Source: Opitutia bacterium
GTDB lineage: Bacteria; Verrucomicrobiota; Verrucomicrobiia; Opitutales; UBA953
Reading direction: 5' to 3'
Length of the DNA stretch: 41,508 bases
Assembly (NCBI GenBank): GCA_003569245.1
Contig: BGOM01000002.1
Coordinates: 135,001-176,508 of the forward strand
The translations under genes and the position numbers were made by a program. Below the pieces are notes generated by a model. That model was not told where the DNA came from and ran no database searches. It saw nothing but the letters and a program-made list of their open reading frames with translations. Within the stretch, counting starts at the first letter, position 1. Every line of letters starts with the position of its first letter. Shown here in pieces: positions 25,694 through 36,713 of the stretch.

Positions 25694-27351
25694 TTAGGCG
25701 GTGGCGACGGGGGCGAACTTCAGCAGTTTGCCTTCGGGGAACTTGTGGTGCGACCAGGCGGCGCCGTCGAGCGCGACGCCTTCGGCGGGGAGCTTCGCGC
25801 CGTCGAGACCGGCGAGCGCGGGCACGGCGGCGGCGAGCTCGGCCCAGACGTTCTTGGCGTCGACGCCGGCGAGTCGCGCGAGCAGGAGGCTGTCGGGCAG
25901 CGTGCCGGCCGGGCGGGCACGGCCTGCGCGAAGGCCTGCAGGCGGAACTGGCAGTTGATGAAGGTGCCGCTGCGTTCGAAGACGGTCAGCGCGGGGAGCA
26001 CGACCTCGGCGGCGGCGGTGGTCACGCTGTGGTGCGTGGCGAGGGCGACGCTGCGGACCTTGGCGAGCGTCGACGCGGGCAGGCCGAGCATCACGGCGTC
26101 CTCGCGCACGATGAGGACGGACTTCACCTTGCCGGCGTCGATGTCGGCCGCGAGGGCCTTGAGGTCGGCGACGGGCGCGCGGTCGGTGAGCCCGGTGACG
26201 AGCGCGCCGCGGAAGTTCGGGGTGCGGTCCTCGGAGACGAGGAGGCCGTCGCCCTTGCCGAGGTGCGCGGGGACGTACACGACGGCGTTCCTCGCCTGGG
26301 CGAGACGCGCCAGGAGGCGCTGTTCCTCGACGGACATGTGGGCGGAGCCGACGATCGCGAGCGGGCCGGCGGCGAGGGCTTGCTGCGCGGCGACGAGGGC
26401 GGCCTCCAGCGTGGCCGGGGCTTGCTTGACGGTGGCGGCGGTCACGCGGTTCGGGGCCTCGACGGCCTTGAAGAGCTCGCGGCCGGAGTCGGCCATCCAG
26501 GTGTCGTTCACGGCGTCGTTGCGGCGCGGCGTCACGCGGTAGATCTTGCCTTCGCGCGACCAGACGGTCGTGTTCGCGCCGGCGGAGGACTCGGTGTCGA
26601 TGCTCGGGGTCTGCTTCAGGAACCACACGCGCATCTTGAAGCGGAAGTCGGTGCTGGTGAGCGCGCCGACGGGGCAGATGTCGACGGTGTTGAGCGAGTA
26701 GTTGTTGTCCAGCTCGCGGCCGGGGAAGCAGGTCAGCGTGTTGAACGAGCCGCGGTTGACGAAGCCGAGGACGGGGTCCTTGGCGATCTCGGACGAGAAG
26801 CGCACGCAGCGCGAGCAGAGGATGCAGCGTTCGTCGTCGAGCGTGACGCGCGGCCCGAGGCGGGTCTTCTTGGGCTTGGCGTTCTTCTCGTCGAGGTAAC
26901 GGGAGTAGCCGCGACCGTATTCGGCCGAGAATTCCTGGAGCTTGCACTCACCGGCCTGGTCGCAGATCGGGCAGTCGAGCGGGTGGTTGAGCAGGAGCAT
27001 CTCCGTCACGCCTTCGCGGCAGGCCTTCACGCCGGGCGACTCGAGGCGGACGTGCAAGCCGGGGGATACGTTGGTGGCGCAGGCGATCGCGGGCTTGGGC
27101 TGCCAGCCGATCTTGGGCTTGCCGTTCTCCATCACGACCTCGTTGGTCGCCCGGTCCCGCATCGGCGACCCGAGCTCGACCAGGCACATGCGGCAGTTAC
27201 CGGCGACCGGGAGCTTGGGGTGGTAGCAATAATGGGGGACTTCCTTCCCGATTTTGCCCAGGGCATCGACCAGATTGGCCCCCGCGGGGACCTGGTGCTC
27301 GACGCCGTCGACGTTGATGGTGACCAAAGAAGGTTTATTGTCCGTGACCAT
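25694..27351 (-). CDS. nuoG: NADH-quinone oxidoreductase subunit G, frameshifted near the C-terminus as read
   Basis: The N-terminal frame from ATG 27351 has the [2Fe-2S] ferredoxin domain (YCYHPKLPVAGNCRMCLVEL), the His/Cys cluster region with CPICDQAGECKLQ, the [4Fe-4S] motif CILCSRCVRF and a molybdopterin-oxidoreductase-like domain (NTTVWSREGKIYRVTPRRND). Near 25,910 the frame must change: AFAQAVPARPA is continued in another frame by GTLPDSLLLARLAGVDAKNV to the stop at 25694. That gives about 551 residues, shorter than proteobacterial NuoG. The switch sits in a G/C-rich run and may be an assembly indel. No nuoF or nuoE lies upstream; the spacer there leads to the giant RNA. Confidence 0.9.
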
Positions 27352-27560
27352 GGGTCTGGAAAGTTATCCGCAAGGTAGGTCCACCCCCACCTGCCGCAAG
27401 GGGAAAGGGGCGAAATTCGGCCTGTATTAGCCCAACGGACAGGGTAGGGCCCTCAGGTTGACCCGTTGATCGGTTGATCCATTGGCCAGAGCGCACCGAT
27501 TCTCTATGCCCCTGCGCCGCCCTTGCCCTGACCCAGACCCTTTTTGTGTCTCTGCCTCTA

Positions 27561-27588
27561 GGTAGGGACCAGCGTCCTCGCTGGTCCG
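27561..27588 (+). repeat. Palindromic repeat R1 (28 bp variant)
   Basis: GGTAGGGACCAGCG is followed by TCCT and CGCTGGTCCG; the loop has one base more than the consensus. Confidence 0.82.
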
Positions 27589-27733
27589 CCGCCTGCCTAT
27601 CCTACCCCTGACCCGGCCGCACCCCTGACCCTAAGAACATCCTCGCCTCCCTTGCCCCCGTTCAACCGGCCAACTATTTCACGATTAAACTAAATCTCCT
27701 TATAAACCAACGTCTTACGATTATTTTACTAAT

Positions 27734-27757
27734 GATAACAGTAATAATGCTTGCAGT
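27734..27757 (+). promoter_or_regulatory. Conserved upstream element of giant RNA A
   Basis: TGATAACAGT (27734-27743) is the exact reverse complement of ACTGTTATCA found at the same place before RNA copy B. A few bases later both copies have CTTGCA (here 27751-27756), 36-37 bp before the shared GTTCYTT at the 5' edge of the RNA. CTTGCA could be a -35 element; no good -10 is visible. Confidence 0.5.
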
Positions 27758-27787
27758 AAGATGTTTGTTTAGTTGGATGGGGCTCTG

Positions 27788-28623
27788 TTCCTTTTACATA
27801 GTCGCTCCTGGGCTCGCCTAGGAGGGACGCCAAACAACGGGCCGCTTAGGGTCCGCAAGATACATCACCGCAAGGTGAGGAAAGCAGTCGCCTCCAACAG
27901 GCCTGCGCCGATCGCGAGGTCGGACAGCTAAGCAAGGGTAGACCTTAAGCTTATTTACAGATGAGCTAGATTCGATGAAGGGTGTGCAAAGTTCCGTGAG
28001 GCTAACTGCTTAGCGGGATGGTAACGGTATCGCCGACCACTGCACCAAGATAACCTTCCAGTTTCTTAGTCTAAGCCAAGTCCGGTGGTTCGACGCGTAG
28101 CAGCGAAGAGCTGACGGGCAATGGACGGAGAGGACGGCTTCCGGGCGACCGGACGACGCGATCTTCGCCCATCGTTCAGGTCAGCTAAGGCTTGGATACG
28201 AGGCGTGCGGCATAGGGTGCTCCAAAAGAGCCTTCAACCGCAGGTGAAGCACGTCTTGGTTGGTGTCTATTCAAGACGTCGTCTGTAAAACGATAAACGC
28301 AAAGTCTTCACCCTCGAGCCGCGAAAGCGGCATAACACTGGAGGCTTCGGCCAATCCAGTCAGGAAAAGCCCCGCGAGGGCTCGACCTGTTGATCATCGA
28401 TGCCTCGGCGACGTTAGCGCGTCTCGCTGCCCGCAAGGTAGACGGGGAGGAAGTGATCGAGTAGCGGTTCGACAGGGATGATACGCCACATCCTAAAAAA
28501 GGCAGTCGTGCTGGATACGCCGGAGGTGAGGAACCACGGTGGTGGACAAGCGGGAAACCCGGTTAGCAGATCGGGGATAATCCGTCGAAAGGTCAGCGAT
28601 GAAGGGGGTAGTCTCACCCCTTC
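27788..28623 (+). ncRNA. Giant structured non-coding RNA, copy A (GOLLD/ROOL-like candidate)
   Basis: About 836 bases with no protein-coding character but many hairpins: CACCGCAAGGTG, CCGATCGCGAGGTCGG, GCCGC-GAAA-GCGGC, ACTGGA-GGC-TTCG-GCC-AA-TCCAGT, GGGATG..CATCC and a terminal GAAGGGGGTAGTCTCACCCC hairpin. It aligns over its whole length with copy B at 33187-34030. Long identical blocks lie at both ends (ACATAGTC near the start, AAAAAGGCAGTCGTGCTGGA near the end), and stems between them keep pairing while changing sequence, which indicates a selected RNA fold. Size, GNRA/UUCG loops and direct tRNA linkage are those of the GOLLD and ROOL classes, but the family cannot be assigned by eye. Boundaries are estimated from shared sequence. 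Small ORFs inside are spurious. Confidence 0.82.
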
Positions 28624-28683
28624 TACCCATTTTACCCAGGCCCCGACGACGAACCGTCGGCCCGCCCGGTCTTCATTTTTCAC

Positions 28684-28758
28684 GCCCCCATCGGCTAGCA
28701 GGCTAGGCCCCCGGCTTTCATCCGGGAAACCGGAGTTCGATCCTCCGTGGGGGTGCCA
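28684..28758 (+). tRNA. tRNA-Glu (UUC)
   Basis: The cloverleaf has acceptor GCCCCCA/TGGGGGT, D-stem GGC/GCC, anticodon stem CCCGG/CCGGG with loop CTTTCAT (anticodon TTC), T-arm CCGGAGTTCGATCCTCCG and an encoded CCA. It starts 60 bases after the terminal hairpin of giant RNA A on the same strand, so co-transcription is plausible. Confidence 0.93.
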
Positions 28759-28774
28759 ATTTTTCTTCTACCCC

Positions 28775-29163
28775 ATGAACTCCTCCCTGGATTTTTCTTA
28801 CGGCGAGGGCGAGTGCGCCCCGCAGGTCCACCTTCGCTGGACCTCCGGCGCTCCGCGCTTGGTCGCCATGCCCTGCGCCTCCGCCTACGTGCGCCCCCCG
28901 GTCGGTGATTCCTGGCCCGCGTGCGACCTCGCTCAGCTCCGTCGGATCGCCCGCCTGGCAAGGAGCTCAACCTCTGGGATGACCAGGCGCACGTCTGGGG
29001 CGAGGACTCGTGCTCCATGGTCGATGGCACCTTTTGGACGCTCGAGCTCGTCGTCGGCCGCCGCCGCTACCGCGCCTCTGGCTGCACCTACGGCGCCCGC
29101 TTCGGCCTCTGCCAGCGCCTCCTCGGCCTGAAGCCCGCCCCCTCTTGGGATTACCGTTCTTGA
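28775..29163 (+). CDS. Hypothetical protein, frameshifted as read
   Basis: An ATG at 28775, 16 bases after the tRNA-Glu CCA, opens MNSSLDFSYGEGECAPQVHL. Near 28957 the frame must shift so that QLRRIARL continues as GKELNLWDDQAHVWGEDSCS, ending ASWDYRS-like at 29163; restoring one G gives a single frame of about 130 residues. I do not recognise the family. The second half is rich in Trp, Cys and aromatic residues and looks like a small soluble domain. The leader CTTCTACCCC has no Shine-Dalgarno sequence. Confidence 0.55.
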
Positions 29164-29176
29164 GCAGCTGCCTTTC

Positions 29177-29201
29177 GGTAGGGACCAGCGTCCCGCTGGT
29201 C
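29177..29201 (+). repeat. Palindromic repeat R1 (right end degenerate)
   Basis: GGTAGGGACCAGCG..CGCTGGTCT lies directly after the hypothetical gene and is followed by a separate 37-bp palindrome. Confidence 0.82.
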
Positions 29202-29207
29202 TATCGC

Positions 29208-29244
29208 GTCCCTTTGAGGTCGCAATTTGCGACCTCAAAGGGAC
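29208..29244. repeat. 37-bp perfect palindrome
   Basis: GTCCCTTTGAGGTCGCAA (29208-29225) is followed by one T and by its exact reverse complement (29227-29244). With an 18-bp stem and no T-run after it, it is neither one of the dispersed repeat modules nor a classical terminator. Confidence 0.88.
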
Positions 29245-29266
29245 GCCTTCGAACCGATCGACGAAC

Positions 29267-29292
29267 GGCCGACCGAGACGGTCAGCCCTACC
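29267..29292 (+). repeat. Palindromic repeat R3
   Basis: GGCCGACCGAGACGGTCAGC and the following CCTACC form the R3 module, with inverted GACCG/CGGTC arms. Confidence 0.78.
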
Positions 29293-29319
29293 TGAAAGCC
29301 TCTGATCGCATCGCGCCCG

Positions 29320-29348
29320 GGTAGGGGCAGCACCGCGTGCTGCCCTAG
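29320..29348 (+). repeat. Palindromic repeat R2
   Basis: GGTAGGGGCAGCAC..GTGCTGCCCTAG is a 29-bp R2 module with complementary GGGCAGCAC/GTGCTGCCC arms around CGC. Confidence 0.85.
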
Positions 29349-29401
29349 TTTTTGCCCTCCTTCGACCTAAAAGCCAACCCCTCGCGAGCTTCGCTCGCGC
29401 A

Positions 29402-29475
29402 GGTAGGGACCAGCGTCCCGCTGGTCCGTGCCGGCACGAGGTCAGGCACGCCATCGCTTCGCGAGGCGAAGCCAG
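29402..29475 (+). repeat. Composite repeat R1 plus inverted R4
   Basis: R1 at 29402-29428 is followed by GGTCAGGCACGCCATCGC..GAAGCCAGACC, the R4 module in the orientation opposite to that at 23860 and 31905. A hairpin CGCGAGC-TTC-GCTCGCG precedes R1 at about 29386. The rest of the spacer to 29544 holds octamer-like repeats (about 29500-29532) and no gene. Confidence 0.75.
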
Positions 29476-29544
29476 ACCCCGCGTTTCGGCCCTCTCCCTT
29501 GCCCCCTGGCCAACTTGCCAGCGTGCCAGCTAGCGTCTGCCCCC

Positions 29545-30276
29545 TCACTTCTCCCCCTCCTCCACATACCCGATGACATGCTTCCCGCTGGCGACGTCAT
29601 ACGTGAAGTGCAGGCAGAGCACGCTGTCGAACTCGGGGTGGGGGATGTACATCCGGCGGCTCAGCGCGAGCTTACGGCCGCGGAACGAGATCACCTTGGG
29701 CTCCGGCCAGACCCGGCAGAGTTGCTCGATCCGGGTCTGATGCATGGCCGCGTTCCAGCCGCCGTTTTTGAGCAGCGCCGGGATTTCCGTCAGCAGGTAG
29801 AGATCCTGCAGGAGGAGGTCGTCGCCCTCCCAGGTGCACTCCCGCGCGCTCTCGATGGCCGACCCCGTCACGATCAGGTGGTCCTTGAAAGGTTCCTTGC
29901 GCAGTTCCTGCAGGAAGCCGGCCACGCCGTTCGTGGCGCGCACCGGGATCTTTTCGGCCCGCGGCCAGAGCGAGAGTTCCTTCTCGCCGTCGCCCGAGAT
30001 CGCCAGCTCCTCGATGATCCGCATGACCTTCGCCTGGTCGCCCTGGCGAAACTCGATGGTCAGGTACAGCTTCCCCTCCCAGGTGTAGTGGATGAAGTGG
30101 ATGCTGCCATGGAGGTCCAGGCCGTGGATCGCGAGGGTGTGGCTGGCGTCGTCGACCATCCAGCAGTCGTTGAGCACCCGCTCGGCGGTGATGATCTGCG
30201 GGAGGAGGCGGCGGAGGTCGGCGGCCGTCAGGCTGGTGCCGAGTTCGCGGTGGCTGAGCTGGTAGGGATGTTTCAT
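29545..30276 (-). CDS. Unknown protein, paralog 1 of a three-copy family
   Basis: This 243-residue protein starts at ATG 30276 (MKHPYQLSHRELG). I do not recognise the family. It shares with two neighbours a layout of an N-terminal region with an LDLHGSIHF-type strand, the signature LYLTIEFRQGDQAKVM (general form TIE-x-R-x-GD), a central VAGFLQELRKEPFKDHLIV segment, and a C-terminal VISFRGRKLALSRRM..LCLHFTYDVASGKHVIGYVEE block. No signal peptide or membrane helix is seen; a cytosolic role is likely. It is flanked on both sides by palindromic repeats. Of the three copies it is the most divergent and, with copy 2, has an intact frame. Confidence 0.72.
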   Translation of the reverse strand: MKHPYQLSHRELGTSLTAADLRRLLPQIITAERVLNDCWMVDDASHTLAIHGLDLHGSIHFIHYTWEGKLYLTIEFRQGDQAKVMRIIEELAISGDGEKELSLWPRAEKIPVRATNGVAGFLQELRKEPFKDHLIVTGSAIESARECTWEGDDLLLQDLYLLTEIPALLKNGGWNAAMHQTRIEQLCRVWPEPKVISFRGRKLALSRRMYIPHPEFDSVLCLHFTYDVASGKHVIGYVEEGEK

Positions 30277-30705
30277 AAGGGGGGTGGTGAGGGGCGGTGG
30301 GGTGGGGGAGCAGGTAAAAGCAATCACGGGCTGCCAGCGCCGGCCCCGGTGAAGGAAGCTGACGTGGTGGGCCGGTCGCCGGTGTGCCCGGCGAGGCTGA
30401 TCTGAGGCGCTTAAGCGGTCTTCGGTTCGATTAGGTGCCCCGAAGACAAATGCTCGGCATTGGTTATCTCAGATGTGGTGTATCCTTCAGAATATCCTAT
30501 TATTATCAAGCCAAAACGTATCCGCGCACCCACGACACCGTTACAATCCACGCCAAGAATTGGAATCGATTTAGTCAGCTGGCCAGCTGGCCAGCGGGCA
30601 CGTGGGCAAGGGGTGGAAACAAGCGAGCACTCGAGGGCCGGAGGGCACGAGGAAGAGGCAAAAGAGACAGATACTAGCAACCTCACCTCGCGCGCCCCGC
30701 GCGCA

Positions 30706-30770
30706 GGTAGGGGCAGCACCGCGTGCTGCCCTAGCTGCCTCTAGGTAGAGACCAGCGTCCCGCTGGTCCG
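30706..30770 (+). repeat. Composite palindromic repeat R2-R1
   Basis: R2 (30706-30734) is joined by CTGCCTCTA to R1 (30743-30770, one substitution: GGTAGAGACC). The same 65-bp arrangement occurs at 31827, 35800, 36775 and 37653. Confidence 0.88.
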
Positions 30771-30873
30771 TGTGTCCCTCAGCCTCTCTGCCTCTGACCG
30801 TCTTCTGGCCCTATCATCGACTCAGCCCTCAGTACTCGATCCAGCACTCGACTCAGCACTCCTCTGCCTCTCC

Positions 30874-30958
30874 CACCGGCCAACTGGCCAACTAATCAAC
30901 CAATCAACTAACTCATCCCCTTGCCCCCTGGCCAACTTGCCAGCGTGCCAGCTAGTAT
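30874..30958. repeat. Octamer repeat array
   Basis: Tandem-like units CCGGCCAA, CTGGCCAA, CTAATCAA, CCAATCAA are followed by a second cluster CTGGCCAA-CTTGCCAG, of the same degenerate type as in 22282-22556. Confidence 0.7.
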
Positions 30959-30982
30959 CTCCTCCCCCTGTCCCTAACTATC

Positions 30983-31741
30983 TCATCGCCCCTTACTATT
31001 CCCCCAACCCACATCCCAGCTCGCCAGCGGCTGCACCCATCCCACCAGGATCTGGTTGTCCGAGATCTTGGCGAAGTGCAGGCCCAGGTGTTCGTCGCGC
31101 AAATCCGAGATCACCTTCACCCGGTGGCGCAGGGCGATTTTCTTGCCTTGGAAGAGGCAGTAGCGCGGCTTGGCATGAACGCGCGTGGCCTCCTGGTAGT
31201 CTTTCTGCACGCGCTCATCCAGGCTCCGCTGCAGGACGCTCAGGCGGGGCACCATGCTCAGGAACTCCAGCTTGCTCCGGATCTCGCGATAATCGTCGAA
31301 CGCCACCTCATGGGCCTCCTCGATGACCGCGTCCGCGATCAGCACCTGGCGTCGCAACGGGCTGGCCTGGATCATCTCGAAGAAAAAGGCCAGCCCCACC
31401 GGGCGCTTCTTGCCCGGGACCAGACGCGGCTCCTTGGGCGTCAGGTCCTTGGCCAGCCCCTGCGCGATGGCCTCGACCAGGGCCTCATCGCCGGCCCGAT
31501 ACTCGATGGTCAGCTCGTTTCGGGGGCGTTGCGAGACATGCTGGACCAGGATATCGCCGTATTGCTGCATCCCCCCGATGCGGGCGGACATGTACAGGTC
31601 CCCCGTCGCCCACGACTCATTGAAGACCGGGGCCGTCGCCACCAGCTTATCCAGCTTCTCCCGCATCTTCCGGGCGGACAACGCGCAGTCGTAGGCACGG
31701 ATCTTCAGTTTCTTCGGGGCGGTCGAGGTCGGCGGTTCCAT
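30983..31741 (-). CDS. Unknown protein, paralog 2 of a three-copy family
   Basis: This 252-residue protein starts at ATG 31741 (MEPPTSTAPKKLKIRAYDCA); unlike most genes here it has a Shine-Dalgarno-like GGAGG eight bases upstream. It shares with paralog 3 the blocks IGGMQQYGDILVQH, LTIEYRAGDEALVEAI, VGLAFFFEMIQASPLRRQVL and IADAVIEEAH, and with both copies the C-terminal strand pattern HLGLHFAKISDNQILVGWV. No known domain is recognised. The charged, soluble composition suggests a cytosolic protein. Repeat composites lie on both sides. Confidence 0.75.
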   Translation of the reverse strand: MEPPTSTAPKKLKIRAYDCALSARKMREKLDKLVATAPVFNESWATGDLYMSARIGGMQQYGDILVQHVSQRPRNELTIEYRAGDEALVEAIAQGLAKDLTPKEPRLVPGKKRPVGLAFFFEMIQASPLRRQVLIADAVIEEAHEVAFDDYREIRSKLEFLSMVPRLSVLQRSLDERVQKDYQEATRVHAKPRYCLFQGKKIALRHRVKVISDLRDEHLGLHFAKISDNQILVGWVQPLASWDVGWGNSKGR

Positions 31742-31826
31742 GGGCGCCTCCGTCTGCCCCTCCGTCCCCTTTGTCAAATCCCCGCCCCGGCTACCTCCGC
31801 CTACCCTCGCGAGCCCTCCGCGCCAG

Positions 31827-31976
31827 GGTAGGGGCAGCACCGCGTGCTGCCCTAGTTGCCTCTAGGTAGGGACCAGCGTCCCGCTGGTCCGCCGCCGGCA
31901 TGGGGTCTGGCTTCAGCACGCGCAGCGTGATGGTGCCTGACCCCGTTGCCGGCCGACCGGGACGGTCAGCCCTACC
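31827..31976 (+). repeat. Long composite repeat R2-R1-R4-R3
   Basis: R2 (31827-31855), R1 (31864-31891), R4 (about 31905-31942) and R3 (31951-31976) follow each other. This is the fullest version of the modular element in the window. The rest of the spacer to 32136 holds low-complexity pyrimidine-rich sequence and no gene. Confidence 0.85.
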
Positions 31977-32136
31977 TCCTTTCCCTGTCCCTGACCCCAT
32001 CATCGACTCAGCACTCCTCTGTCTCTCCTCCTTGCCCCCGGTCAACTATTGAGCCCTCACCTTCGTCATAACCCTCTTTGGATTGGCGGTCGGTTCCCCG
32101 CGCGCGTACTCTCCGCTTTCCACCTGCCCCTTCCCC

Positions 32137-32946
32137 ATGCTCGGAGCCATCGCCGGAGATATCATCGGATCCGTCCACGAATTTAGCCAGAACGAGGACC
32201 GCGACTTTCCGCTGTTCGTCGCGCGTTCTTCGCCGACCGACGACTCCCTGCTGACGGCCGCGATCGCCCGTGCTTGCCTGGGGGGTTCACGTGACTACCG
32301 AGCGGCGATTCTCCGCGCTTGGGCCGATACATGCCGTCCCGCGGTCCAGCCGCCGATCGGGCCGGGTTGGGGCGTGGGTTTCTCGGCCTGGGCCTCCACC
32401 GGGGGAGAGACCGTCCGTCAGTCTTTCGGCAACGGCGCCGCGATGCGCGTCTCCCCGGTCGCCTGGGCCTACGAGCAGGAGGCCGACGTCTTGGAGCACG
32501 CCCGGCTGACGGCGGCGGATTCCCATGCCCATCCCGAGGGCATCAAAGGCGCCGTGGCCACCGCGCATTGCATCTGGGTGGGCAGGCGGACGAACGATGC
32601 GGCGGCGGTGCGCCGGACGGCCCTGAGCTATTACTCCGAGCTGCCCGACCTCGAAACGATTCGCCGGACCCACGTCTACAACGAGACCTGCCAAGGCTGC
32701 GTCCCGGAATGCCTCGCCATCGCCACCGGCACGTCCGACTACGAGTCCGCCGTCCGTTTCGCCTGCTCCATCCGGGGCGACGCCGACACCTTGGGCGCGA
32801 TCGCTGGCGCCGTCAGCCAAGCCCTGTACGGCATCCCCGATTCCATCCGCCAGTCCGCCGTTCGTCTCGCCCACCGCTACTACCCCTGGATCGGCTCCAC
32901 CCTTGCGGAGTTCGAATCCCGCTTCGGCCCAGCCCCCAACCGCTAA
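32137..32946 (+). CDS. ADP-ribosylglycohydrolase family protein
   Basis: This 269-residue protein starts at ATG 32137, where the family motif begins at once (MLGAIAGDIIGSVHEF). Further motifs are SPTDDSLLTAAIA (metal-binding T-D-D), GNGAAMRVSPVAW, TAADSHAHPEGIKGA and the C-terminal metal site RGDADTLGAIAGAV. These are the hallmarks of the DraG/ARH fold, a di-magnesium enzyme removing ADP-ribose from proteins or small molecules. The substrate cannot be told. It lies between the unknown paralogs and giant RNA B, alone on the plus strand. Confidence 0.9.
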   Translation: MLGAIAGDIIGSVHEFSQNEDRDFPLFVARSSPTDDSLLTAAIARACLGGSRDYRAAILRAWADTCRPAVQPPIGPGWGVGFSAWASTGGETVRQSFGNGAAMRVSPVAWAYEQEADVLEHARLTAADSHAHPEGIKGAVATAHCIWVGRRTNDAAAVRRTALSYYSELPDLETIRRTHVYNETCQGCVPECLAIATGTSDYESAVRFACSIRGDADTLGAIAGAVSQALYGIPDSIRQSAVRLAHRYYPWIGSTLAEFESRFGPAPNR

Positions 32947-32955
32947 CCCCAACCC

Positions 32956-33004
32956 CGCGCGAGCTTTGCTCGCGCTCGGTAGGGACCAGCGTCCCGCTGG
33001 TCCG
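32956..33004 (+). repeat. Hairpin plus palindromic repeat R1
   Basis: GCGCGAGC-TTT-GCTCGCGC (about 32957-32975) is followed directly by R1 (32978-33004). A related hairpin precedes R1 at 29402. Octamer repeats follow at about 33017-33060. Confidence 0.78.
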
Positions 33005-33134
33005 CCGCCGGCTCGCTTGCCTCGTACTTGCCCACCGGCCCACTTGCCCGCTGGCCAGCACTGGCTCTCTTTAGACCAAATTACTGTCACTAAATTTCGT
33101 TGAACACCAATGACTTGCGTTAAATCAACAAACA

Positions 33135-33156
33135 ACTGTTATCATTTTACTTGCAC
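33135..33156 (+). promoter_or_regulatory. Conserved upstream element of giant RNA B
   Basis: ACTGTTATCA (33135-33144) is the exact inverse of the element before RNA A and is followed five bases later by CTTGCAC (33150-33156). CTTGCA is 37 bp from the shared GTTCYTT. The region 33065-33180 is AT-rich, as expected of a promoter. Confidence 0.5.
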
Positions 33157-33186
33157 CATGCTGTCACTTTCTTACCTCTCCCATCA

Positions 33187-34030
33187 GTTCTTTAAACATA
33201 GTCCGACGAGCGATCACCTCAAACGCCGGACGCCAATAAACGGGTCGCGTTGGATCCGTAAGATAGTGCGCCGTGAGGCGCGGAAAGCAGGGAGCCCACC
33301 GACGGGTCTGCGCCCGACCGCAAGGTCGGAACAACAACGCAAAAAGGATGAGTAGTAATAGCTTCCTTGCATGGGAGCTAGATCCGACGATGGAGGGGAA
33401 AAGCGCGTGAGTGCCAAACGGCGTAGCGCGTGACTAACGGTTGTGCCGAGCAAGCCCCTGCACTAAACCATATAAGATTGTTACAAGTCCAGGTCCGGCG
33501 GTCCAAGACGAAATCAAGGGCTGGCGGACATGATGAGAGCGAATGGGTGCTTCGGCGCACAGGAGCTCGACTTCGAGTTTTGACCCTCAAGGTTGGGACA
33601 TGGCAGGAGCGTGGTATTTTTCCACCCGCGAGGGAGGGAAAGCCGCTGGTGACGCGCTTCTCGGTCGGTTCTCTTACGCGGAGAAGTCTTATGTAAAAAG
33701 ACCAAATGCAAAAGTCGTCACCCCTGATCGAGCGAAACGACGCAACGCTGCGGGCGAAAGCCAACGCAGCCGGAGGGAAGTCCGCCCGGACTTCGCCGTT
33801 GATCTTGGAGGAATCGGAGGGCTTCGCCGCCCTAGCTGCGCGTCAACGTGGACGAGTCTGAAGAGGTCGAAAGCAAAATCAGCAGGGAAGTGATGCCGCT
33901 TCCTTAAAAAGGCAGTCGTGCTGGATACTCCGTAGGTGCAAGCCGCGGAGTGGATAAAGCGGGAAACCTGATTAGCACCGGGCATAATCCGAGCAAAGGC
34001 CAGCGATGAAGGGGGTAGTCTCACCCCTTC
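33187..34030 (+). ncRNA. Giant structured non-coding RNA, copy B (GOLLD/ROOL-like candidate)
   Basis: About 844 bases aligning end to end with copy A. Homologous stems with compensatory changes include GCGTTG/CAACGC (A: GCTTAG/CTAAGC), GCGCCGTGAGGCGC (A: CACCGCAAGGTG), GCTGCG-GGC-GAAA-GCC-AA-CGCAGC (A: ACTGGA..TCCAGT with a TTCG loop) and CTCCG/CGGAG (A: CGCCG/CGGTG). Near-identical single-stranded blocks include GGAAAGCAG, GAGCTAGATCCGA, AAAAAGGCAGTCGTGCTGGA and GGGGGTAGTCTCACCCC. The terminal hairpin ends 14 bases before the first element of the tRNA array. No coding potential is evident. The family assignment is a hypothesis; the presence of a selected RNA fold is well supported. Confidence 0.82.
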
Positions 34031-34044
34031 TCAACATTTTCAAT

Positions 34045-34115
34045 AGTCCCTTGAGGCAGCGGTGGCATGCGAGGCTTTGACCCTCACGGCCGGGGTTCGC
34101 ATCCCCGAGGGACTA
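34045..34115 (+). tRNA. tRNA-Gln-like element (UUG), atypical D-arm
   Basis: There is an acceptor stem AGTCCCT/AGGGACT, a good T-arm CGGGG-TTCGCAT-CCCCG, and an anticodon arm with loop CTTTGAC (anticodon TTG) on a four-pair stem with one C-A mismatch. The D-arm region is short and pairs poorly, and no CCA is encoded. It could be a working tRNA-Gln of reduced form or a degenerate copy. It starts 14 bases after giant RNA B and ends three bases before the next tRNA. Confidence 0.6.
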
Positions 34116-34118
34116 TAC

Positions 34119-34194
34119 GCGGAGGTGATGAAATGGCAGACATCGCGGGTCCAGAACCCGTGTCCTGCGGGTTCGAGTCCCGCCCTCCGCACCA
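34119..34194 (+). tRNA. tRNA-Leu (CAG) lacking the long variable arm
   Basis: Acceptor GCGGAGG/CCTCCGC, Leu-type D-arm (TGATGAAATGGCAGACAT), anticodon stem GCGGG/CCCGT with loop TCCAGAA (anticodon CAG, with C instead of the universal U at position 33), T-arm GCGGG-TTCGAGT-CCCGC and encoded CCA. The variable region is only GTCCT, five bases, whereas bacterial tRNA-Leu normally has a long stem there. Confidence 0.8.
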
Positions 34195-34198
34195 TTCG

Positions 34199-34270
34199 CG
34201 CGGCAGATCGTGCAAGGTGGCCTGCGAGGCCTGGCTCCTCGCGGCCGGGGTTCGCATCCCCGAGGGACTA
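34199..34270 (+). pseudogene. Degenerate tRNA-Gln-like element, unit 2
   Basis: The T-arm and 3' acceptor strand are identical to unit 1, but the 5' acceptor strand no longer pairs. The anticodon arm (GCGAGG/CCTCGC) carries loop CCTGGCT, which would read TGG with C at position 33. It is probably not a working tRNA. Confidence 0.6.
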
Positions 34271-34273
34271 CAG

Positions 34274-34346
34274 GCGGAGGTGATGCAACGGCAGACATCG
34301 CGGGTTTAGAACCCGTGTCCTGCGGGTTCGAGTCCCGCCCTCCGCA
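34274..34346 (+). tRNA. tRNA-Leu (UAG) lacking the long variable arm
   Basis: Same body as the first Leu copy, with loop TTTAGAA (anticodon TAG, normal U33) and variable region GTCCT. After the discriminator A the sequence is CCG, so CCA is not fully encoded. Confidence 0.85.
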
Positions 34347-34353
34347 CCGTGCG

Positions 34354-34424
34354 CGCGACAGATGGTCCACGGTGGCATGCTAGCCTTTGTTCCTCGCGGC
34401 CGGGGTCGAATCCTCGAGGGACTA
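34354..34424 (+). pseudogene. Degenerate tRNA-Gln-like element, unit 3
   Basis: The T-arm (CGGGG-TCGAAT-CCTCG) has lost a loop base and the anticodon stem no longer forms. Only a partial acceptor pairing TGGTCC/GGACTA remains. Confidence 0.6.
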
Positions 34425-34427
34425 TAC

Positions 34428-34503
34428 GCGGAGGTGATGAAATGGCAGACATCGCGGGCTTAAAACCTGTGTCCTGCGGGTTCGAGTCCCGCCCTCCGCA
34501 CCA
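34428..34503 (+). tRNA. tRNA-Leu (UAA) lacking the long variable arm
   Basis: Same body as the other two Leu copies, with stem GCGGG/CCTGT, loop CTTAAAA (anticodon TAA), variable region GTCCT and encoded CCA. Confidence 0.85.
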
Positions 34504-34533
34504 CCTGGCAGATCGTTCAACGGTCGAAACCCT

Positions 34534-34550
34534 CGCCCGCTCACCGGGCG
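34534..34550 (+). terminator. Possible terminator of the giant RNA B-tRNA transcript
   Basis: CGCCCG-CTCAC-CGGGCG is a six-pair hairpin 30 bases after the last tRNA. No T-run follows directly (only ACTTT further on), so the call is weak. Confidence 0.3.
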
Positions 34551-34683
34551 ACATGATACTTTGCCCCCTTTGACCGACGCTCCAGGTATTTTCAGCAGTT
34601 ACTTTCAGGTCACGTCGGACGAGCAATGCCTTCGCCCTCGGGCCATCGGATTCTTCGGGGCCTCGGGCGGTCTCGTTCCGGCG

Positions 34684-35981: not shown

Positions 35982-36713
35982 TCAGAACGGCGTTTCCTCC
36001 ACCCACCCCAACAACACCTTCCCCGCCGGCAACCTCGCGAAATGCATCGTCAGCACCTGCCCGCTCTTGGGCTCGCGGGCCTCGATCTGGTGCCAGAGCC
36101 AGATCCGGTTGCCATTGAACCAGCATGCTTTCGGCTCCCGATGCCGGCGCAAAGCGTGGCGGGCCTCGCGGACCTCCTCCGTCGTGAACGCGCTCAGAAT
36201 CGTCCGGTTGGCCAGCCGCTCGTGGAGCGAACCCAGGACCTCCAGTTGCCGACGGGCCACCCGGTACCCCGCGAAATGGAACAAATGCGCCTGCTCCACT
36301 ACCGCGTCGGCGATGAGCACCTTTCGTCCCAGCGCCTGTCCCTGGATCATCTGGAAGAAGTAAGCCATCCCCGGCGGACGGGTCTTGAGCGGGGAGGGCG
36401 GGTTAGGTCGGGCGACCAGCACCTTCCCCATTTCCTGTTCCAGCTCACGGACCAGCCCCTCGTCGCCTGCACGGTTGCTCGATGGTCACCGTGAACCCAT
36501 CCGCCTGCGTATCGTGGCGAATCAGGATATCCCCATGCAGGTCCATCCCGCCGATACGGTACAACCAGCCATGCTCCTCCAGCAGGAAGCACCCGTTGAA
36601 AGCCCGCGCCCCTCGATCAACTCTCCAGCCGCAAGGCGAAAGAGCGTGCAAAGCTCCGAGCACGCATAGGTCCGAAGGACAAGTTTAAGGGGGGAGGAAA
36701 GATCTCGTTTCAT
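35982..36713 (-). pseudogene. Paralog 3 of the unknown three-copy family, two frameshifts
   Basis: Read from ATG 36713 the protein begins MKRDLSSPLKLVLRTYACSE, moves to another frame near 36610 (RGARAFNGCFLLEEHGWLYR, then IGGMDLHGDILIRH and FTVTIEQ), and shifts again near 36480, where one extra C breaks TIEQRAGDEGLV. The last part runs intact to 35982 (GMAYFFQMIQGQALGRKVLI, ADAVVEQAH, LTMHFARLPAGKVLLGWVEE). It is clearly closer to paralog 2 than to paralog 1. Two indels in one gene argue for decay, but assembly indels are frequent in this window. Confidence 0.72.

Follow-up and report, generated by a model that had tools for sequence, protein, structure and literature searches.

Introduction

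GOLLD is a very large non-coding RNA, known above all from phages, and carriage by a phage or prophage is usual for it, not obligatory. The published collection comprises 806 non-redundant GOLLDs (PMC12286853). The env-38 GOLLD, 833 nt in length, has been solved as a 14-mer cage; in the available text of that report, GOLLD is also said to bind ribosomes in pull-down assays, and tRNAs and ribosomes figure among the cargo candidates (PMC12286853). The GOLLD of an L. brevis prophage accumulates in lytic growth and is dispensable for phage production, as related, with citation of others, in the accessible part of a second paper (PMC7567579). Here we analyze two GOLLD genes, each followed by tRNA genes, in a 41,508-nt stretch of DNA (hereafter the window; assembly GCA_003569245.1, contig BGOM01000002.1, positions 135,001 to 176,508) from a freshwater, Opitutales-type member of the Verrucomicrobiota, whose 2.45-Mb assembly is 91% complete. 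A preliminary description, made from the sequence alone, had proposed at this place a pair of homologous non-coding RNAs of GOLLD or ROOL type, possibly of a new subfamily or class. The reading we favor, with rather more confidence than doubt, is that both are full-length GOLLD genes, each likely forming one unit with its tRNAs under boxA antitermination of the rRNA type, and that the RNA, freed by a cut at the first tRNA, would self-assemble into a hollow cage.

Two full-length GOLLD genes

Both regions are full-length genes for GOLLD RNA, a known family. The Rfam model (RF02032, gathering score 150 bits), which represents the 3′ domain only, matches copy 1 at 28198-28620 (198.6 bits, E 1e-54) and copy 2 at 33605-34027 (157.3 bits, E 2.3e-42), both on the plus strand and both over model positions 1-416, and E-values of this size rule out chance for either copy. 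The earlier guess of GOLLD or ROOL thus resolves to GOLLD: ROOL, HEARO and OLE gave no match at gathering in the whole window and none at E <=0.1 in 27600-34600, and around both copies, in that same interval, no Rfam family other than GOLLD and tRNA was matched. The idea of a new class or subfamily fails because both regions exceed the GOLLD gathering score, and the 5′ halves do not support it either, being homologous to the 5′ domains of phage GOLLDs on the evidence given below.

The two stretches of ~840 nt align from end to end and are essentially non-coding, as had been described. What had been called near-identical 5′ and 3′ blocks holds for short blocks, such as the 23-nt string of the terminal hairpin, which is the same in copy 1 (28601-28623, plus strand) and copy 2 (34008-34030, plus strand); it does not hold for the whole copies, which are 61% identical overall, 58% in the 5′ half and 64% in the 3′ half. 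Since copy 1 is 65-66% and copy 2 57-60% identical to the other five GOLLDs of the genus, as compared with 61% between the two, the pair did not arise by recent duplication. When copy 1 was compared by blastn with phage records for near relatives, the matches were to tRNAs alone. Each copy was compared with 20 dinucleotide shuffles and folds better than all of them (z -4.17 and -3.60). The open reading frames inside the two RNAs span 81-128 aa, and another, of 217 aa, begins inside copy 1, at its 3′ end, and extends past it; a coding reading was rejected, a codon-composition caller having retained just one weak 89-aa frame over copy 1.

The 5′ domains, 27796-28197 in copy 1 and 33196-33604 in copy 2 (plus strand), lie outside the Rfam model and were approached with a covariance model of 151 positions, R1, built from the seven copies known from the genus, so that its matches at 27796-27946 and 33196-33355 are training rows. 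Run on 34 sources, R1 gave 21 matches at E <=1, seven of them training rows; the other 14 are half of the 28 non-training GOLLD loci (three of these 28 being below the Rfam gathering score), with a best E of 1.9e-11, and all 14 stand upstream of the 3′ domain on the same strand. The remaining 14 loci were unmatched. A second run, on 26 sources, yielded 22 matches at E <=0.01, 15 of them non-training, and matched two of seven further phage records. In the resulting alignment 92.8% of cells are paired, against 64.6% after shuffling and at most 48.7% when slid, figures that lean towards the structure in that the alignment was fitted to it, and 27 of 31 pairs vary on both sides. By these matches, and with this strong covariation, the 5′ halves are homologous to phage GOLLD 5′ domains.

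A boxA-like motif at the 5′ end

Copy 2 begins with a boxA (33187-33201, plus strand, GTTCTTTAAACATAG) that is the sole match, on either strand of the window, to the strict pattern G[CT]TCTTT[GA]A. The counterpart in copy 1 (27787-27801, plus strand, GTTCCTTTTACATAG) is loosely boxA-like, agreeing by our own count with 7 of the 11 positions of GYTCTTTAANA, which is weak alone; it is a conserved block present in all seven genus copies, every one of which starts with GTTC..ACATAG. The consensus is gamma-proteobacterial, and most genus blocks depart from it; the authors of the survey that gives it state, in its available portion, that non-coding RNAs were not considered (PMC5725501).

The motif was examined in 25 viral GOLLDs over Rfam gathering, comprising 23 IMG/VR contigs and 2 phage records. 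Within a 5′ zone set at 330-720 nt before the 3′ domain, 13 of the 25 carry a strict boxA and none carries it on the other strand, as compared with 8 of 490 control windows and a shuffle expectation of 0.25; the Fisher p of 3.6e-14 overstates the association, because the boxA-bearing loci fall into few lineages. The motif had been chosen after the first nine loci, four of which match; among the 16 validated later, 9 match. Left out of the test were loci below gathering, two of them cut off (L104, L122, L124, L125, L126); unvalidated loci (L105-L108, L118, L123), of which L105, L118 and L123 either failed in Rfam or were not submitted to it; loci that are not GOLLD-like (L127, L128); and loci with short upstream sequence, near-copies or loci not GOLLD-like (L131, L138, L140, L142, L143, L145, L146, L149-L151). 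L104, L143 and L149, all left out, do show the motif. Over 32 loci, strict boxA was counted 28 times on the strand of GOLLD and 5 times on the opposite strand. In 7 of 13 loci boxA is immediately preceded by the end of a hairpin, as compared with 125 of 2600 randomly placed positions. We did not find a link between boxA and GOLLD in the literature searched, a set with few subscription papers.

Fifteen strict matches fall outside the GOLLD 5′ zone, and five of these, as seen after the fact, stand 27-30 nt before a tRNA gene (L134, L139, L144, L153 and L154, in viral contigs and in Xanthomonas phage X1). In phages, tRNA arrays at large may be driven by antitermination.

Linked tRNA arrays

The direct linkage to tRNA genes noted earlier is borne out for both copies, all the genes concerned being on the plus strand. 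A single tRNA-Glu(UUC) follows copy 1, starting 61 nt past its end (28684-28758; called by ARAGORN, Rfam tRNA 44.2 bits). Past the end of copy 2, at 14 nt, comes a tRNA-Gln(UUG) that lacks an encoded CCA (34044-34116), and then three tRNA-Leu genes, with anticodons CAG (34119-34194, 76 nt), UAG (34274-34348, 75 nt as called) and UAA (34428-34503, 76 nt), all called by ARAGORN and all with a short variable arm; between them lie two degenerate copies of the tRNA-Gln unit (34197-34271 and 34352-34425), seen as BLAST tandem units and uncalled by ARAGORN. At 75-76 nt, the three tRNA-Leu are shorter than the other four of the host, which have 82-86 nt, and in the viral loci 19 of 35 tRNA-Leu (near-copies counted) are of 78 nt or less. 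Two of the three end in CCA, and their differences are mostly confined to the anticodon region. No close match to them was found among the viral-locus tRNAs. Their short form points to a phage origin.

The tRNA-Leu(UAG) is the only one found in this genome, the four tRNA-Leu outside the array having anticodons CAA, CAG, GAG and UAA; the phage-like array may be the cell's source of a CUA reader, or the usual gene may be absent from the assembly. Elsewhere in the genome a second tRNA array (Gln, His, Ile, Ile, Arg, Gln, Pro; L036 6744-8210, contig C13) runs to within 5 nt of a contig end; no GOLLD was found on that contig piece, which ends on the side where GOLLD would be. Among the viral loci, transfer-messenger RNA genes stand close to GOLLD within the same arrays in L110, L112, L158 and L159, and a CUA-anticodon tRNA (called Pyl), a possible amber suppressor, lies just 3′ of GOLLD in L119 (1603-1676, minus strand). 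A whole or partial tRNA match occurs inside the 3′-domain linker in L111, L112, L115, L119, L130, L132, L134, L139, L141, L144, L148 and L152; there is none within that linker in either window copy.

Twin hairpins and the cage loops

A model of the twin-hairpin region of copy 1 (28389-28464, plus strand, with loops TTAGCG and CGCAA) and its counterparts, including 33798-33874 in copy 2 (plus strand), found 29 matches at E <=0.1 in 44 sources, with 96.8% of cells paired against 66.4% after shuffling. The second loop reads CGCAA in 26 of the 29 rows, copy 1 among them, the exceptions being copy 2 (CGTCAA), L132 and L059. As to the first loop, 28 rows contain GC or CG and a single row AT, a weak indication given how frequently short loops carry these. 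In the solved cage, as far as the available text goes, L21a and L21b are symmetric kissing loops that join the half-shells, L21a with a palindromic dinucleotide and L21b conserved (PMC12286853). We tentatively equate the twin-hairpin loops with this pair, an equation of our own. From the same perspective, copy 1 looks competent and copy 2 may be altered.

Distribution and phylogeny

The host is of the Planctomycetes-Verrucomicrobia-Chlamydiae type that had been suspected: the closest named contigs that carry GOLLD, those of its relatives, come from uncultured Opitutae, from Verrucomicrobiota bacterium BS8, from a Verrucomicrobia assembly of Lac Pavin and from Opitutia bacterium UBA957. GOLLD was found in 6 of 55 genomes of the genus, and the same six were the ones found among 372 genomes drawn from the order; 2 of 387 drawn from the phylum have it, one of them below gathering. 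The 5′ model finds the same six genus genomes, and two copies occur in this genome only, so the pair is as unusual as had been supposed, to the extent that incomplete assemblies allow. Absences are soft in general, because of that incompleteness and of the strict filters in the large searches. Five of eight pattern-scan matches in genome contigs are GOLLD. In viral contigs two 3′-end patterns gave no match, the 5′-block pattern gave three, none with an Rfam GOLLD, and another pattern gave two that are not GOLLD-like. In seven annotated phage records (L154-L159, L161), GOLLD matches without any feature over the match, having been overlooked by annotation.

In the GOLLD tree, which includes nine viral GOLLDs, all seven genus copies fall on a single branch of their own (support 100/100), and within that branch G439 groups with G021, G009 and G023 (100/99). 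The nuoG tree, from which G023 was left out, rejects the grouping of G439, G021 and G009 (approximately unbiased test, p-AU 5.6e-39), and five changes are needed for five hosts. Because the two trees conflict, the cassette probably moves between species of the genus, in a lineage that would have entered it long ago. A sister relation of copies 1 and 2 is neither supported nor rejected (p-AU 0.276).

Gene neighborhood

Copy 1 stands divergent to a nuoG-like gene for an NADH dehydrogenase subunit (25720-27351, minus strand; Pfam Fer4_Nqo3 and NADH-G_4Fe-4S_3) and to nuoH. In the related genome G021, where the locus holds nuo genes, a DNA ligase and other cellular genes, GOLLD lies at the same nuoG flank and in the same orientation, within conserved synteny. 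A prophage was considered and rejected, scans of window proteins (10 and 8, a part of the open reading frames) having turned up no phage structural gene; among eight window proteins, PHROGs gave clear E-values only for an ADP-ribosylglycohydrolase and a phosphohydrolase. A defence island was likewise rejected, as PADLOC gave no match for any of eight window proteins; of two proteins of the genome G440, one matched mad8.

A protein family of no known type occupies three places in this genome, all near GOLLD and on the minus strand (29545-30327, 30983-31840 and 35994-36698, the third with stop codons). Neither intact member matched Pfam, PHROGs, NCBIfam or PADLOC, and an AlphaFold model (predicted local distance difference test score 80.9, predicted template modeling score 0.53) had no PDB match at E 0.001. 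The family has 82 relatives in metagenomes; it also occurs at three places in G440, two of them close to GOLLD. As a dedicated partner of GOLLD it was rejected, since the GOLLD-bearing G021, G009 and G023 are without it and the GOLLD-negative G011, G034 and G156 each have one weak match; it remains a neighbor. A SpoT-like HD_4 protein, possibly an alarmone hydrolase, lies downstream of GOLLD in this genome (37023-37733, with a Pfam score below cut-off) and in G440 (L057 8631-9092). Near-identical short intergenic repeats, similar to repetitive extragenic palindromes, are dense around both GOLLDs (27553-27596, 29401-29436, 31857-31899, 32975-33012 and others).

Discussion

The inferred system is a boxA-led GOLLD-tRNA transcription unit, its steps taken from what is established about the processing of rRNA and tRNA, together with the published structure. 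Transcription would start in the AT-rich leader; Nus factors would bind boxA in the nascent transcript, as in rRNA leaders, and prevent Rho from halting the long untranslated RNA, giving boxA-dependent read-through. RNase P, in generating the tRNA 5′ ends, would release GOLLD, and the freed RNA would form a multi-copy cage by analogy with the published 14-mer, probably holding or shielding part of the translation machinery, tRNA or ribosome. The cassettes would be of phage origin and now pass among the genomes of the genus as small GOLLD-tRNA units. A bolder form of this, which we put forward tentatively and at somewhat less than even confidence, is a shadow ribosomal operon: an antiterminated boxA-led unit, spread by phages, that would mass-produce cage RNA and tRNAs and that in freshwater Opitutales would have become a small mobile chromosomal cassette, here running two diverged cage RNAs at once, maybe in mixed or in separate cages.

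Several observations weigh against the boxA-led unit. The motif is loose in copy 1 and non-strict in six of the seven genus copies; the 5′ zone has no strict boxA in 12 of the 25 viral loci, nor has any of seven further phage GOLLDs a strict boxA, or even a match to a looser pattern; and the viral loci that have it come from few lineages and so are not 13 independent cases. No rRNA gene was found in the 14 and 25 genomes searched for the rRNA leader of the genus, and a promoter scan upstream of either copy gave no sigma-70 match. Moreover, the loop CGTCAA of copy 2 departs from the conserved CGCAA, and this copy, the most divergent of the genus, may be decaying. The boxA-like block might instead be a conserved RNA 5′ end or a promoter element and no antitermination signal, a view that draws on the genus block GTTC..ACATAG being mostly off the gamma-proteobacterial consensus and on several viral GOLLDs that are without strict boxA and still have the 5′ domain. 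We think this rather unlikely: the five strict sites before tRNA genes away from GOLLD would not be explained by the 5′ end of this RNA, boxA and the 3′ domain lie anywhere between 418 and 683 nt apart in the viral loci, and a hairpin often precedes the motif.

The other alternatives concern the cassettes as a whole. Both GOLLD-tRNA stretches might be decaying remnants of phages or phage-like islands, little transcribed and useless to the cell, as the patchy occurrence in the genus (6 of 55), the degenerate tRNA-Gln units, the short phage-like tRNA-Leu and the lower score and altered conserved loop of copy 2 would suggest. Decay sits poorly, however, with the retention of the whole Rfam model in both copies, with helices that stay paired across 58-66% identity, with tRNA-Leu genes of which two of three keep a CCA end and which differ little outside the anticodon region, and with the lack of any phage structural gene among the 10 and 8 window proteins scanned, and we regard it as unlikely. 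More improbable still, in our judgment, is a settled cellular RNA, old and vertically inherited at nuoG, that would serve the cell in translation or stress and whose connection to phages would belong to the past. The shared flank, orientation and conserved synteny in G021 speak for this, as does the single branch of the seven genus copies apart from nine viral GOLLDs (100/100); yet GOLLD is there in just 2 of 30 nuoG loci (this genome and G021, several loci being truncated where contigs end), the flank is a breakpoint, the nine genomes compared having little in common there beyond nuoG, and the GOLLD and nuoG trees are in conflict.

GOLLD forms a very large RNA-only assembly, and cassettes on the genome of a free-living bacterium offer a system with no phage life cycle to interfere. 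A natural pair raises the question of co-assembly of two cage RNAs. The boxA lead connects GOLLD to the ribosome-making machinery and makes the production of so much untranslated RNA testable by reporter.

In rrn leaders the order is boxB-boxA, and the hairpin that immediately precedes boxA in some viral GOLLD loci resembles this. Those leaders, in the accessible part of the survey, likewise have boxA upstream of an RNA that is long, structured and untranslated (PMC5725501); unlike rrn operons, the RNA here is GOLLD, and boxA is present in part of the GOLLDs only. ROOL, too, is a large ornate RNA near tRNAs that forms cages (PMC12286853, available text), but the window has no ROOL match. The env-38 GOLLD is closer, sharing with the window copies the Rfam 3′ domain, the arrangement of 5′ and 3′ domains, the tRNA neighbors and the size (833 against ~840 nt); the window differs from it in having two diverged copies, 5.4 kb apart among Verrucomicrobiota chromosomal genes with no prophage seen around them, and in the altered conserved loop of copy 2. 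In the tRNA arrays of Mycobacterium, GOLLD likewise occurs on bacterial genomes together with tRNA clusters that are regarded as products of horizontal transfer; there, according to the available parts of the two reports, one GOLLD lies inside a cluster of ~32 tRNA genes with an HNH endonuclease (PMC9569102, PMC6582537), whereas here small GOLLD units carry 1-5 called tRNAs, and two such units occur in one genome. Set beside these systems, the locus represents a known family whose location and copy number are unusual, and it offers a new, testable lead on how the RNA is expressed.

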